In this document: in pieces, positions 14,228-19,201 of the stretch
How positions within the stretch are numbered: the stretch's first letter is position 1
Layout: every line of letters starts with the position of its first letter
DNA from: Actinomycetes bacterium
GTDB taxonomy: Bacteria > Actinomycetota > Acidimicrobiia > Acidimicrobiales > Palsa-688
Reading direction: 5' to 3'
NCBI GenBank assembly: GCA_021838445.1
Contig: JAKCDU010000041.1
Span: forward strand, 1-34,565
Length of the DNA stretch: 34,565 nt
The notes under the pieces: model-generated
Seen by the model: the letters and a program-made list of their open reading frames with translations, nothing else
Databases searched by the model: none
Told to the model about the DNA's origin: nothing
Program-made: the position numbers and the translations under genes

Positions 14228-15781
14228 ATGAGCACCACTCAGGAGCGAGCGGCGGCCCAGAAGCGTTTCGCTCTGGCCAAGTCCGGCCTGGATACCGTCG
14301 ACGAACGCTTCGCCTCGTCGAAGTGGCTGGTCAGTGCCCTGGACAAGATCTTCCCCGATCACTGGTCGTTCATGGTCGGCGAGATCGCCATGGACTCGCT
14401 GATCATCCTGATCGCCACCGGCATCTACCTCGCTCTCTTCTACGTTCCCTCGTCGACCGACGTGGTCTACGCCCCGACCAGTGGCCACGTGTACCTGCCG
14501 CTCGTGGGCCAGCACATGTCCGAGGCCTACCAGTCGGTCATCAACCTGTCGTTCGACGTGCGCTTCGGGCTGATCATGCGGCAAGCCCACCACTGGGCGG
14601 CGCTGATCTTCCTGGCTGCGGTGTTCTTCCACATGTGCCGCATCTTCTTCACCGGGGCGTTCCGCAAGCCCCGTGAGATCAACTGGATCATCGGCCTGGC
14701 GCTCTGGCAGATCGTGTCGCTCGAGGGCTTCACCGGCTACTCCCTCCCCGATGACCTCTTGTCGGGCACGGGTATCCGGGTGATCTATTCCATCGTCCAG
14801 AGCATCCCGCTGGTGGGAACCTGGTTGGCTTATGCCCTGTGGGGCGGCCGCTTCCCGGGATCGACGTTCATTCCCCGGCTGTTCGTCATCCACGAGTTCC
14901 TCTTCCCGCTCGCCATCGTCGGGCTCCTGACCGCCCACCTGATGATTCTCTGGCACCAGAAGCACACCGACTTCCCCGGGCCGGGCAAGACCGAGACCAA
15001 CATCCGGGGCAGCCGGGTGTGGCCTCAGTACGCCATGAAAGCCGGCGGCCTCATGATGCTCACGGCCTCGGTCACCTTCCTGCTCGCCGGCTTCGTGCAG
15101 ATCAACCCGGTCTGGCTGTACGGGCCGTACACCACCTACACGGTGTCCGCCGGATCGCAGCCGGACTGGTACCTGGGCTGGTTGGACGGCTCGGTACGGC
15201 TGTGGCCCCACTGGGAGTTCCGCTCGTTCGGCCACGAGATACCGAACCCCTTCTTCCCTGGCCTGCTCATACCTTCGATCCTGTTCGGGATCATGTTCGC
15301 TTGGCCGTGGATCGACAAGTGGATCTACAAGGACTACGGCCCGCACAACCTCTTGGACCGTCCCCGGGACAAGCCCTTCCGGACCGGTGTCGGGGTGGCC
15401 GCGGGGATGTTCTTCACCGATCTCACCTTGGCCTGCGCCACCGACCTGCTGGCCAACAACCTGCACGTACCCTTCGAGCGGCTCATCGAGGTGCTGCAGT
15501 ACGGCGTCTTCGTCGGACCCATCGCCGGCTTCGTCGTGGCTTACTGGACCTGCCTGCATCTCCAGCGAACCGACGCCCACCCCATCCGCCGACCCGTCGG
15601 TGGGATCATCTACCGGACGGCGTCGGGCGGCTACCACACCGTGGGCGACGTTCATCACGATGACCACGGCCACGACGATGGACACGGCGATCATGGTCAC
15701 GGCGGTCCTCACAGCGATACGCCGGGCGGTCAAAGCCCCCGCCACGACGCCCCCACCCCCGAACCTGTAGCCGGCGACTAG
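14228..15781 (+). CDS. qcrB: Cytochrome b subunit of the bc1 complex, with histidine-rich C-terminal tail
   Basis: 517 residues with eight or more membrane helices. Haem ligands lie in RQAHHWAALIFLAAVFFHM and in HEFLFPLAIVGLLTAHLM. SQPDWYLGW is the Qo-site PEWY equivalent in its PDWY form. It oxidises menaquinol and moves electrons across the membrane. After the last helix comes a polar tail in which residues 476-497 hold nine histidines alternating with Asp and Gly, a possible metal-binding segment. GGAGG sits a few bases before the ATG. It is the last gene of the ctaE-qcrCAB operon and is followed by a strong hairpin. Confidence 0.97.
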   Translation: MSTTQERAAAQKRFALAKSGLDTVDERFASSKWLVSALDKIFPDHWSFMVGEIAMDSLIILIATGIYLALFYVPSSTDVVYAPTSGHVYLPLVGQHMSEAYQSVINLSFDVRFGLIMRQAHHWAALIFLAAVFFHMCRIFFTGAFRKPREINWIIGLALWQIVSLEGFTGYSLPDDLLSGTGIRVIYSIVQSIPLVGTWLAYALWGGRFPGSTFIPRLFVIHEFLFPLAIVGLLTAHLMILWHQKHTDFPGPGKTETNIRGSRVWPQYAMKAGGLMMLTASVTFLLAGFVQINPVWLYGPYTTYTVSAGSQPDWYLGWLDGSVRLWPHWEFRSFGHEIPNPFFPGLLIPSILFGIMFAWPWIDKWIYKDYGPHNLLDRPRDKPFRTGVGVAAGMFFTDLTLACATDLLANNLHVPFERLIEVLQYGVFVGPIAGFVVAYWTCLHLQRTDAHPIRRPVGGIIYRTASGGYHTVGDVHHDDHGHDDGHGDHGHGGPHSDTPGGQSPRHDAPTPEPVAGD

Positions 15782-15797
15782 ATCCCTTCACGTGTTG

Positions 15798-15834
15798 ACC
15801 GGCGGTCCCTTGCCGGGGACCGCCGGTTGGTTTC
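15798..15834 (+). terminator. Terminator after qcrB
   Basis: Perfect 12-bp stem: 15798-15809 (ACCGGCGGTCCC) pairs with 15816-15827 (GGGACCGCCGGT) around the six-base loop TTGCCG. A short T-rich tail (TTGGTTT) follows. It lies 17 bases after the qcrB stop and fits an intrinsic terminator of the ctaE-qcrCAB operon. Confidence 0.8.
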
Positions 15835-15989
15835 CGCACTCGCCCCTCCGGTGGCGCTGATGTGTTCTCCCGGGAGCCTTGTCTCACCAGACCGGTATGC
15901 GACGGTTCGACCGGTGGTCCGGGGACATTGCGCTTTCCCGGGTGTGGACGGTTGCTTGGGGGCACCGGGTCCGACGGGCCCCAGGTCGG

Positions 15990-16330
15990 CCGGCCTCCCC
16001 GTGTACCTGACATTCGGGGCTCGCTCCTCGTTGCGGAAGCCGTCGATCCACTCGACGGGGATGGAGCCGTGCCTCCCGTAGAATCTCATCGCGCCCTCGT
16101 TGGATTGGAAGGTCCACAGCTGCAGGCCTCCTGGCCGGAGGGATCTGGCGACGGTGAGGAGAGGTCGATCCCGACGCCCGCCCGGGTGTGTCGGGGATCC
16201 GCATAGAGCTGGTCCAAGAATTCACCGTGGAGGACCATGAGGCCGATCGCCGCGCCAGAAGCGTCGGCAGCTATCCACAGCTCCTGCGGGGGAAGCGAGC
16301 GGCTCAGATCCCGGCGCAGGACCACCCGTG
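15990..16330 (-). pseudogene. Broken GNAT-family acetyltransferase (second of two)
   Basis: The minus strand reads ELWIAADASGAAIGLMVLHG then FLDQLYADPRHTRAGVGID, the acetyl-CoA-binding core of a GNAT enzyme. After about 16160 this frame turns into nonsense, while the next frame continues the family sequence (LTVARSLRPGGLQLWTFQSN, then EGAMRFYGRHG and RNEERAPNVRYTGRP). A one-base deletion near 16160-16165 would explain it. The front of the gene is missing: its first recognisable strand directly follows the last residues of the other GNAT remnant (RVVLRRDL), as if two tandem genes were fused by a deletion. The second frame then runs without a stop into the qcrB terminator. Sequencing error could explain the single-base shift but not the missing N-terminus. 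Confidence 0.7.
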
Positions 16331-16657
16331 AGGCCGGGTCGAGCCTTGGGCGGCCTCCACCTCGCGCCCAGACCCCAGGCCGGGACCGATCTCATGATCG
16401 GGAAGGACCCGAAAGCCGAGATGCTCGTCGAGGAGCCGGTTCCAGGGAATGTCGCCGAACGTGATCAGCGTGAGTGTTCCCACGCCCTGGCTGGCGGCCC
16501 AGCGGGCCGCCCGCTCGACCGGCGCCGCCCGACCCAGCCCCCGGCCTTGATGGTCCGGGGCCACGCTGACCTGTTCGATATGGGCCGCGTCGTCAACCAC
16601 ATCGACCAGGATGTAGCCAACGGGCGCACCACCAGCGTCTTGCACCGCCCACGTTCA
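16331..16657 (-). pseudogene. Broken GNAT-family acetyltransferase (first of two)
   Basis: The frame reads TWAVQDAGGAPVGYILVDVV, then HIEQVSVAPDHQGRGLGRAA (the acetyl-CoA pyrophosphate-binding loop QGRGLG) and GDIPWNRLLDEHLGFRVLPD, clearly a GNAT domain. It is cut at both ends. A TGA (16655-16657) stops the frame four codons before the conserved part, so the N-terminal strand and helices are absent. Near 16345 a one-base deletion shifts the frame, while the expected ending (LDPASRVVLRRDL) continues in the neighbouring frame. Translation from the GTG at 16645 could still give a 113-residue product, so a short residual protein cannot be ruled out. Confidence 0.65.
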
Positions 16658-16695
16658 CCCCCCCGACCGTTCAAGCTGTCCAACCCTGATCCAGA

Positions 16696-16766
16696 GTGAA
16701 TCTACGAACGAAGGCGAATCTACGGCCTATTTCAGGCCGTGGATTCGCACACGTTCGCAGATTCAC
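16696..16766. repeat. Large imperfect inverted repeat (33-base arms)
   Basis: Left arm 16696-16728 and right arm 16734-16766 are reverse complements except for about five positions (one near the outer third, a run of three in the middle, one near the loop), around the five-base loop ATTTC. Paired blocks include GTGAATCT/AGATTCAC, CGAACG/CGTTCG, GCGAATC/GATTCGC and ACGGCCT/AGGCCGT. The arms are much less GC-rich than the surroundings. It lies about 160 bases beyond the ctaF stop and 39 bases from the truncated GNAT gene. It could be a terminator, a REP-like or MITE-like element, or a recombination scar. Confidence 0.75.
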
Positions 16767-16924
16767 ACCGGATGCCTCACGCGGGCGGGGCGGCTGGCTC
16801 GCTCGCGCGGGCCGGGTGGCTGGCTCGGGCTCCCGGCGCTCCGGGCGCTCCAGGCGCAGCCGCGGCCGCTGCGGCGCCGGGGAAGCGCTGAGACCACGGA
16901 GTGGAGTTGCTGGCTCGAGTCGCC

Positions 16925-17413
16925 TCAGCCGTGGTGGGGGAGCGAAGGCCCGGAGGGCACTTCGTGATCCGCCAGCTCAGCCGGGTCGATACCGGGAAGC
17001 ACGTCCTCGGTGTAGTCGGATTCCGTAACCCAGCCGATCACCGAGCCGATGAACAGGATCCCTCCGATGTAGAGGTACCACAGGCCCCAGACCAGGGCGC
17101 AGCCCCCGAAGATCATGCCGAGGCCCATTCCCGCCGGCCAGATCGAGGCCGCCGGGAAGTAATCGATCACCCCGGCACCTTCCTCCTGGGTCGCGTCGAA
17201 GCGGTCTTCGACGCGGGGTGTGCCGTGGCGGCGGAAGTACTGCGCCAGCAGATAGAACCCGAGCAGGCCGTAGGCCGAGAAGCTGAAGATGAGCATGGCG
17301 ATACCGCTGCGCTCGGCGGTGTGGCCATAGGTGGCCACCATGGCCCAGTAGGCGGCGGCCAGAATCACCAAGAAGACGAAGGCGCCGATTATGGTGCGGG
17401 ATTCGACTTTCAC
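16925..17413 (-). CDS. ctaF: Cytochrome c oxidase subunit IV (actinobacterial CtaF)
   Basis: 162 residues from the GTG at 17413, with GAGG upstream. Four hydrophobic helices are visible: TIIGAFVFLVILAAAYWAMV, a second at about 35-60 (GIAMLIFSFSAYGLLGFYLL), and two in the C-terminal half (MGLGMIFGGCALVWGLWYLY, then GGILFIGSVIGWV). The loop FPAASIWPAGMGLG is typical of the family. This small subunit accompanies the aa3 oxidase of actinobacteria. It is the last gene of ctaC-ctaD-ctaF and is separated from ctaD by 111 bases containing a hairpin. Confidence 0.93.
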   Translation of the reverse strand: MKVESRTIIGAFVFLVILAAAYWAMVATYGHTAERSGIAMLIFSFSAYGLLGFYLLAQYFRRHGTPRVEDRFDATQEEGAGVIDYFPAASIWPAGMGLGMIFGGCALVWGLWYLYIGGILFIGSVIGWVTESDYTEDVLPGIDPAELADHEVPSGPSLPHHG

Positions 17414-17436
17414 TTATTGCCTCGGGATTTGCCGGT

Positions 17437-17462
17437 GCCCGCCGCAGGTCAGGGCGGCGGGC
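17437..17462 (-). terminator. Hairpin between ctaD and ctaF
   Basis: Perfect 9-bp stem, GCCCGCCGC (17437-17445) with GCGGCGGGC (17454-17462), and an eight-base loop. On the minus strand it follows the ctaD stop by about 60 bases and precedes ctaF by about 25. No T-run follows, so partial termination or mRNA processing that lowers ctaF relative to ctaD is as likely as full termination. Confidence 0.45.
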
Positions 17463-17524
17463 GAATTGGTCAGGGAGAGTCGGGGGCTAGCGCCCGCCGC
17501 CGACGGTGAGCCCACCGGGGTCAC

Positions 17525-19201
17525 TCAGTGGCCGACCTTGGTGAGCATGTCGGGGTGGTTGGCGTCCCAGACCGGTCGCTCCGAGCGGATCGGGGGAAGG
17601 GCCTCGAAGTTGTGGTCGGGCGGCGGGGACGAGCAGGCCCACTCCAGGGTCTGGGCATCCCACGGGTTGTCGCCGGCGATGGGGCCGCTGCGGTAGGACT
17701 TCACCAGGTTGATCACGGTGGCTACGACACCGAGGCCGGTGATGTAGGACCCGATGCTGGAAAGCTCGTTGAGGAAGTTCCAGCCCAGGCCGGCGTTGTA
17801 AGTCTCGATCCGGCGCGGCATCCCCCGCAGGCCGAGGTCGTGCTGGGGGAAGAAGGTCAGGTTGAAGCCAATGAGCAGAAGGATGAAGCTGGCCTTACCC
17901 CAGCGCTCATCGAACATCCGCCCGGTCATCTTGGGATACCAGTAGTACAGCCCGGCCAGGCCGCCGAAGACCAGGCCCATGATGACGTAGTGGAAGTGGG
18001 CCACGACGAAGTAGGTGTTGTGCAGCTGGAAGTCCAACACCGGCTGGGCCAGGATGACGCCGGTCACACCGCCCATCAGGAACTGGATCAGGAATCCGAT
18101 GGAGAACAGCAGCGGAGTGTTCAGCACGATCGTTCCCCGCCACATGGTGCCAATCCAGTTGAAGAACTTGATACCGGTCGGCACGGCGATGAGCAGTGAC
18201 ATGGCGGCGAAGAACGGCAGGAGAACCGCCCCGGTCGTGTACATGTGGTGGGCCCACACGCCCATCGACAGGGCCCCGATGGACAGCGTGGCGGCGATCA
18301 TGCCCTTGTAGCCGAACACGGGTTTGCGGCACATGCTGGCCAGGACCTCGGTGACTACGCCGAAGTAGGGCAGGGCGATGATGTACACCTCGGGATGACC
18401 GAAGAACCAGAAGAGGTTCTGCCACAGGATGGGCTGGCCGCCCTTCTGGGTGTTGAAGAAGTTGCCGCCGAGGTGCCGGTCGATCCACAGGAGGGCGAAC
18501 GCCGAGGTGAGGACCGGGAAGGCCAGCAGCACCAGGAACATCGTGACCAGGATGTTCCACACGAAGATGGGCATCCGGAACATCACCATGCCGGGAGCGC
18601 GCAGGGTGAAGATGGTGGTGATGATGTTGACGGCCGAGAAGATGCCCGAGAAACCGGTCAGGGCGATTCCCACCAGCCACAGGTCGCCGCCCGGGCCGGG
18701 GGAGTGGATGGCCTCGGTCAGGGGGGCGTAGCCGAACCAGCCGAACTGGGCCGCCCCGTTGTTGGTGAGGAAACCGGCCATCAGCAGGCTGAACCCGCCC
18801 AGGTACAGCCAGTAGGAGAGGTTGTTGAAGCGGGGGAAGGCCATGTCCGGCGCCCCGATCATCAGCGGGACGAGGTAGTTGCCGAAGCCGGCGAAGCCGA
18901 ACGGACCGGCGAAGACGAACAGCATGATCGTCCCGTGGATGGTGAACAACTGGTTGTAGACATCCGCGGTGATGAAGTGGTTGTTGGGCACGATCAGCTG
19001 CGTGCGCATGCCCAACGCCATGATCCCGGCCACCACGAAGGCGAGCAGACCGGTCACCAAGTAGTTGAGGCCGATCTGTTTGTGGTCGGTGCTGGTTATG
19101 TACTTGACCAGACCGGCCGGGCGGGGGCCCGGAACGATGTCCATCAGGAGCGGATTGTGTTCCTCCGAGGGCGGCTGGGGTCGATCTTCGAGGAGGGTCA
19201 T
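17525..19201 (-). CDS. ctaD: Cytochrome c oxidase subunit I (aa3 type)
   Basis: 558 residues with about 12 membrane helices. The haem a ligand region FTIHGTIMLFVFAGP (His89), the copper/active-site segment FGHPEVYIIALPYFG with the cross-linked His and Tyr, the following HHMYTTG, and the two-haem segment HNTYFVVAHFHYVIMG are all present, so the catalytic centre appears complete. It reduces O2 to water and pumps protons. The ATG at 19201 overlaps the TGA of ctaC (ATGA). In many actinobacteria ctaD is unlinked from ctaC; here they are coupled. Confidence 0.98.
   Translation of the reverse strand: MTLLEDRPQPPSEEHNPLLMDIVPGPRPAGLVKYITSTDHKQIGLNYLVTGLLAFVVAGIMALGMRTQLIVPNNHFITADVYNQLFTIHGTIMLFVFAGPFGFAGFGNYLVPLMIGAPDMAFPRFNNLSYWLYLGGFSLLMAGFLTNNGAAQFGWFGYAPLTEAIHSPGPGGDLWLVGIALTGFSGIFSAVNIITTIFTLRAPGMVMFRMPIFVWNILVTMFLVLLAFPVLTSAFALLWIDRHLGGNFFNTQKGGQPILWQNLFWFFGHPEVYIIALPYFGVVTEVLASMCRKPVFGYKGMIAATLSIGALSMGVWAHHMYTTGAVLLPFFAAMSLLIAVPTGIKFFNWIGTMWRGTIVLNTPLLFSIGFLIQFLMGGVTGVILAQPVLDFQLHNTYFVVAHFHYVIMGLVFGGLAGLYYWYPKMTGRMFDERWGKASFILLLIGFNLTFFPQHDLGLRGMPRRIETYNAGLGWNFLNELSSIGSYITGLGVVATVINLVKSYRSGPIAGDNPWDAQTLEWACSSPPPDHNFEALPPIRSERPVWDANHPDMLTKVGH

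Follow-up and report, generated by a model that had tools for sequence, protein, structure and literature searches.

A REP-like family of dispersed palindromes at gene ends in one genus of uncultivated bacteria

Main finding

The palindrome of interest lies 3' of a ctaF-like gene in a stretch of 34,565 nucleotides (the window: the whole stretch of DNA analysed). It belongs to a repeat family that is new in itself, though of a kind already known. In the wide sense the family is REP-like, which was one of the options in the original prediction: the palindrome is multi-copy, lies outside genes and stands at gene 3' ends. It is not a REP of the GTAG/RAYT type. As far as we have searched, it is confined to a single uncultivated genus, probably of Actinomycetota, and no published description of it was found in the literature searched. 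We lean, by a small degree, towards a REP/SPRITE-like family of interspersed palindromes that would now be immobile and would retain a putative binding motif. The likelihoods worded for this reading and, below, for a MITE-like fossil and an RNA hairpin overlap: the dispersed-repeat part is common to all three.

The palindrome beside ctaF

The window was originally described as carrying, next to a truncated acetyltransferase, an inverted repeat with 33-base arms, about five mismatches and a five-base loop, and this geometry is confirmed (Table 1). The same holds for (i) its base composition (GC 52.1% in the hairpin, 63.3% and 80.0% in the preceding and following 150 bases, 69.4% in the window), (ii) the modular motifs within one arm, GAATCTACG occurring in the left arm at 16698 and 16716, 18 bases apart, and (iii) the distance of 39 bases between the end of the hairpin and the in-frame stop (16655–16657) that truncates the acetyltransferase. 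The start of this GNAT remnant is missing, because its match to Acetyltransf_1 begins only at profile position 41 of 116.

Table 1. Features around the palindrome, in window coordinates
Feature	Position	Strand	Remarks
ctaF-like gene, upstream of hairpin	16925..17413	-	protein matched in 24 of the 33 genomes searched
GC-rich 26-base direct repeat, two copies	16776..16827		between ctaF stop and hairpin; stretch differs in G001
Palindromic repeat (hairpin)	16696..16766	-	read in ctaF direction; G000 has 12 copies at 11 loci, this one included
Right arm, 33 bases	16734..16766		complement of left arm, 5 mismatches
Conserved hexamer CGTTCG (CGAACG on other strand)	16752..16757	+	41 bases from first hexamer
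Loop ATTTC, 5 bases	16729..16733
Left arm, 33 bases	16696..16728		18-nt unit 16696–16713 (contains CGAACG), then second, partial unit from 16714
Conserved hexamer CGAACG	16705..16710	+	ortholog-pair comparison
TCCAGA, outer boundary	16690..16695		TCSARA form, common to many, not all, copies (by eye)
GNAT acetyltransferase remnant, far side of hairpin	16304..16645	-	N-terminal part missing

A scan with 31-pair arms and a five-base loop found at least 24 Watson-Crick pairs at a single place in the window, the hairpin itself (26 pairs); the maximum in six Markov-simulated windows was 21. A general repeat listing of the window does not include the hairpin as an inverted pair. Both strands fold strongly, with z-scores of -9.4 (DNA, plus strand), -12.0 (RNA, minus strand) and -11.0 (RNA, plus strand), and in each of the three tests none of 200 shuffles folded as well. 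A terminator scan of 15700–17700 returned no terminator-like site. Rfam 15, searched over 15900–17700, has no match at the hairpin; the only hit in that stretch (RF02605, E 0.13) lies inside ctaF and is below the gathering score.

The name ctaF is that of the original prediction, and the protein has no NCBIfam match. The prediction also named the case that would speak against it: a single copy, kept in relatives as a terminator of ctaF. A copy is indeed kept beside ctaF in the nearest relative, yet the repeat is multi-copy. That the hairpin serves as a locus-specific terminator of ctaF only is hardly credible, conserved though it is in that relative: the same repeat stands at ten other loci, and of the 17 ctaF loci examined, the other 15 of the same family did not show it within 450 bases downstream of ctaF. 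We rejected a single ctaF terminator on account of the other copies.

On the far side of the hairpin (window positions 15782–16695), the window's genome carries the GNAT remnant and the nearest relative an OmdA/DUF1905 gene; a variable gene slot therefore lies beside ctaF. The suggestion of a recombination hot spot stands in so far as tandem repeats and the ctaF-side gene differ between species, but these differences do not single out the hairpin as their cause.

Copies and their distribution

Three genomes make up the whole sample of the genus: the window's own (G000), its nearest relative (G001) and a third species (G002). All are fragmented assemblies, 90–96% complete, with many repeat copies at contig ends. 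Paired locus labels such as C113/C202 give the contig in G000 and the matching contig in G001; C17/C115 and C5/C34 are contig ends with the same sequence and were merged before loci were counted. When the genome and its relatives were searched for more copies, G000 proved to have 11 loci with 12 copies in all, C78 having a tandem pair; 13 loci were counted in G001 and a single one in G002. The two identical hairpins of C78 lie in a tandem duplication of ~217 bases (C78, 289–584).

In G000, blastn with the hairpin gave 17 matching pieces (E up to 10). The motif GAATCTRCGAACG, with at most one mismatch, occurs there at 25 places, against one for the reversed control. Palindrome loci account for 21 of these places; the other four (C54, C58, C80 and C112) are single, chance-like matches, and beyond them the motif was not found without a palindrome. 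A covariance model, built from 16 copies, added further copies beyond the motif scan. The pattern CGAACG-N41-CGTTCG matches 12 times in G000, 14 times in G001 and once in G002, with matches of non-family appearance at C24 in G000 and at C119 and C155 in G001. The bare pattern is not rare: it turned up in 28 of the 41 genomes scanned, with as many as 14 occurrences in G037, and is common by chance in relatives.

Run over the 59 relatives other than G000 and G001, the covariance model yielded one further convincing copy, that in G002; given the many genomes, stricter filters were applied, under which weak copies can be lost. Matches in four of the 58 relatives besides G000–G002 scored 20–43 bits and were not counted: those in G055 (two; E down to 1e-8) are long hairpins without CGAACG, that in G049 has one CGAACG in a different stem, and those in G053 and G032 are other GC-rich hairpins. 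A long, near-perfect hairpin with an A-rich end, 3' of a gene in the distant relative G055 (C69, 3823–3894), is probably an ordinary terminator.

An exact-pattern scan of genome contigs, which may omit records near the window's genome, found the repeat only in the MAG REEB343 (JAGWSF01), in seven stretches. Viral contigs (exact pattern) and plasmids and phages (blastn) gave no match, and an origin in those collections was rejected. REEB343 is assigned to Acidobacteriota, probably wrongly, given an actinobacterial QcrB. The QcrB of the window (14228–15781) passes the actinobacterial NCBIfam model NF050120.

Anatomy of the family

The core is exactly 67 bases long in 17 copies and is built of 18-base units in inverted order, with about two units to each arm: GAATCYRCGAACGNNNGY and GAATCYRCGG. 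G0C1, one of two weaker copies added by hand, has a one-base shift. Additional 18-base units occur in some copies, for the most part on a single arm: six in G1C193, five in each of G1C81 and G1C54, and two in each of G0C17, G0C15 and G1C63 (counted by hexamer, at most one mismatch). The extra units add hexamers and make the stem no longer, and their number varies between orthologs.

GC-rich tandem repeats stand beside many copies, usually on the assigned 5' side, and contigs often end there; at C5/C225 they lie on the opposite side, against the general pattern. G000 and G001 differ both in these and in the 18-bp tandem repeats that adjoin the hairpins. TCSARA, the outer sequence, can be clearly recognised at just one of the two ends. 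In 25 copies, inspection by eye revealed no shared GTAG or CGTC foot (CGTC stands beside the foot in one pair, C78/C12), and a run of five T after the core was found in none (C78 has TTTT some bases on). As regards the terminal inverted repeats of a MITE, the whole element is an inverted repeat.

Past spread and present immobility

The genomic positions of the copies point to two features of their history. Firstly, 10 of the 11 G000 loci are matched in G001 by a copy in the corresponding position; seven of these were aligned across the spacers and three paired by common flanks, some with low flank identity. At the eleventh, metH, the G001 contig ends at metH. Core identity over the ten ortholog pairs is 583/670. 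Secondly, the G002 spacers after ino1, metH and aspRS (the neighbour of aspRS being putative) are short and lack the repeat. After rpsA the G002 neighbour gene differs, and the G002 DAHPS and VTT spacers, which have other neighbours, were left out of the count of empty spacers. In G014, from another genus, a methyltransferase directly follows ino1 and the aspRS spacer is short.

Because the three G002 spacers lack the repeat, it probably spread in the common ancestor of G000 and G001, and it seems to have stayed put since. The distances agree with this placing: outside the hexamers, orthologs differ by 0.153 and paralogs by 0.37, while four-fold sites differ by 0.154 between G000 and G001 and by 0.46 to G002 (five genes). 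Insertion as such we infer, the empty spacers of G002 and G014 being too diverged to align at base resolution with filled ones, and no target duplication was visible. Loci seen in one species only (metH in G000; C39, C54 and C79 in G001) were unusable as filled/empty pairs, since the contig ends there or the neighbour gene is missing. Of the small non-autonomous mobile element originally suggested, the past spread stands, in view of the empty G002 spacers, but present movement does not, given that 10 of 11 loci are in the same place in G001.

The lone G002 copy is a case apart. Three genes on its contig (L102; G002:C178) have four-fold distances to G000 of 0.115–0.275, whereas five other G002 genes, pooled, give 0.46. 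Because these genes are far closer to G000 than other G002 genes are, we suspect horizontal exchange or misbinning, and we rejected this copy as a founder of the family.

What moved the repeat was sought among Y1/RAYT transposases (PF01797): none was found in G000, G001 or G002, whereas the control was positive in 5 of 14 genomes. REP/BIME elements proper, mobilised by a RAYT, do share with the present family an extragenic palindrome at gene ends, and the same placement is reported for REPs in the part of the literature consulted (PMC3733652). Against them stand the missing PF01797, the lack of a GTAG foot common to the copies (by eye) and the small number of copies, and we regard RAYT mobilisation as very improbable. 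A RAYT-REPIN was rejected, with no Y1/RAYT transposase in assemblies of the completeness given above.

A decayed MITE-like element is a rather unlikely alternative, but one with several points on its side. It would have no present function and would have lost its transposase, and its placement at gene ends would reflect the removal of insertions elsewhere. The family is dispersed, palindromic and probably gained in one lineage, all of which fits; and pneumococcal repeats, held to be parasitic, are also enriched in convergent spacers according to the parts of the report consulted (PMC3049150). It sits less well with the failure to find a Y1 transposase (the sole transposase family searched) in the three genomes, or with the lack of matches in viral contigs, plasmids and phages under the searches described above.

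Placement relative to genes

Gene calls around the loci were made with a codon-usage script, and short gene names were assigned in the analysis. Twelve loci have both neighbours: nine are convergent, three tandem and none divergent, with the window locus counted as convergent by ignoring the GNAT remnant (it is tandem if the remnant is included) and three of the 12 assembled from two contigs or two species. In a baseline of 74 other spacers (60–600 bases, with orthologous loci counted twice), seven are convergent, 41 tandem and 26 divergent; element spacers were taken without a size limit, and two of them, the window locus and C39, exceed the 60–600 base range. The difference is clear for convergent placement (Fisher P 4e-6) and smaller for divergent placement (P 0.015). 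With only the nine loci that lie in one piece, after removal of orthologous duplicates, seven are convergent and two tandem (P 2.5e-5 for convergent). At two further loci with a single neighbour, that gene points at the hairpin, so that at 14 of 14 loci at least one neighbour gene ends toward it. The family is thus dispersed, extragenic, 3' of genes and not found between divergent genes.

The neighbours include ctaF, metH, class II DAHP synthase, inositol-1-phosphate synthase, a class II (D/K/N) tRNA synthetase, an alkyl-sulfatase-like hydrolase, an Rrf2-family gene, SnoaL-like genes, a VTT-domain gene and an S1-domain protein. No common pathway is apparent among them.

A gene ending toward the hairpin at every locus is what would be expected of a 3' UTR hairpin that acts in the RNA, either terminating transcription or shielding the end of the transcript, a reading that we consider possible, if unlikely. 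At the tandem loci (ino1, metH and DAHPS), the assigned sense strand is also that of the upstream gene (3/3). However, convergent loci look co-directional in either orientation, and constant co-direction of hairpin and upstream gene was dropped as strong evidence for a terminator, with the tandem loci kept. Further against an RNA hairpin, no terminator-like site was found in the scanned part of the window and no five-T run follows the core in the 25 copies.

Two conserved hexamers in a drifting core

Nine of the ten ortholog pairs were compared base by base (the pair at the Rrf2 locus was dropped, a one-base shift breaking the register). In the hexamers CGAACG and CGTTCG together, one of 108 positions has changed; in the core outside them, 74 of 495 (14.9%) have (P 3.5e-6). 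The choice of hexamer was made with the copies in view, but the test used changes between orthologs. Across 24 copies (G0C1 left out), every position of the hexamers has the same base in at least 23. For comparison, 15.4% of four-fold sites have changed in nine flanking genes, a rough yardstick at that number. The core outside the hexamers drifts at about this rate; therefore, the stem as such is without detectable constraint. The prediction that the hairpin is not a simple terminator is borne out, with no terminator-like sites in the scan and core constraint detectable only in the two hexamers.

Compensatory change in the stem is weak: over 16 copies, the covariation score was reached by 14 of 500 shuffles and the number of double-change pairs by 168 of 500. 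On the assigned sense strand, G-U pairs outnumber A-C mismatches by 93 to 45 in 25 related copies, and by 30 to 16 among changes since the G000/G001 split (P 0.054). This excess is a hint of a function in RNA, or else of deamination biased by strand. Which strand is sense was judged by eye, with the TCSARA side, the loop and the neighbouring repeats as guides; the pairs C113/C202, C5/C225 and C15/C81 show the opposite G-U bias or a more stable fold in the other strand.

These data bear on both remaining alternatives. The G-U excess favours an RNA hairpin, but deamination could yield the same bias, the strand was assigned by eye, three loci run the opposite way, covariation is only modestly above shuffles and the core outside the hexamers drifts at the four-fold rate. 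That same drift is what a MITE-like fossil predicts; in a fossil, however, the hexamers should decay too, and their single change stands against 74 in the rest of the core. As for the preferred reading, a family with a retained motif, the chances that the hexamers are a binding site for a sequence-specific factor, rather than parts of a dead repeat or of an RNA hairpin, appear about even.

Literature on a CGAACG palindromic binding site, judged by titles and abstract openings, held nothing relevant. Likenesses to a LexA-box, parS, SlmA and the tRNA T-arm were considered and dropped.

Comparison with known repeats

The comparisons below draw on parts of the cited reports. SPRITE repeats of Streptococcus pneumoniae are small, terminator-like elements that lie close to the 3' ends of genes and are enriched in convergent spacers; they spread in the past and spread slowly now (PMC3049150). 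In behaviour they are nearest to the present family, followed by REPs: terminator-like form, gene 3' ends, convergent enrichment and past spread are common to both families. The present family differs in lineage and in its conserved hexamers and 18-base modular arms, the two being compared by description rather than by sequence.

BOX elements have the structure boxA-boxB(n)-boxC. They are modular repeats of S. pneumoniae whose internal boxB number varies among strains (PMC3049150). The present family is likewise modular with a varying number of internal units, but, comparing descriptions, its 18-base unit itself forms both hairpin arms.

REPs are extragenic sequences of 20–40 bp, mostly downstream of genes and between convergent or tandem genes, and REP/BIME elements bind gyrase, IHF or Pol I (PMC3733652; PMC2817692); tagged REPs are reported from eight phyla, mainly Proteobacteria (PMC3733652). 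The likeness lies in extragenic palindromes at gene ends with convergent or tandem placement. Unlike the GTAG and CGTC families described there, the present family has a longer core and about a dozen copies, with no common GTAG foot and no RAYT found.

Correia/NEMIS, ERIC and RUP elements are intergenic repeats of ~100 bases that form stem-loops, some of which are processed in RNA (PMC2229807). They resemble the present family as small intergenic stem-loop repeats; they differ in target duplication and a parent insertion sequence, neither of which was seen for it.

Proposed history and significance

Taken together, the comparisons suggest the following course of events. A near-perfect palindrome would have spread in the common ancestor of the two species, G000 and G001, and its movement would then have stopped. 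Since the split the core has drifted at about the four-fold rate, leaving only CGAACG and CGTTCG hardly changed. Inverted and 41 bases apart, these hexamers are a candidate recognition site for a factor acting at gene ends, for which the binding of gyrase, IHF or Pol I by enterobacterial REP/BIME elements offers an analogy. A bolder version, which we put forward as speculation more likely wrong than right, predicts that the paired CGAACG hexamers are the site of an undescribed gene-end factor, that the 18-bp units form a tunable binding array, and that the repeat has been co-opted as a gene-end boundary or termination element.

Position is a main argument on whether repeats of this kind have any role. 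Base-by-base comparison of two species separates the hairpin from the motif as the thing that is kept, and the conserved hexamers provide a concrete sequence with which a candidate factor may be found.
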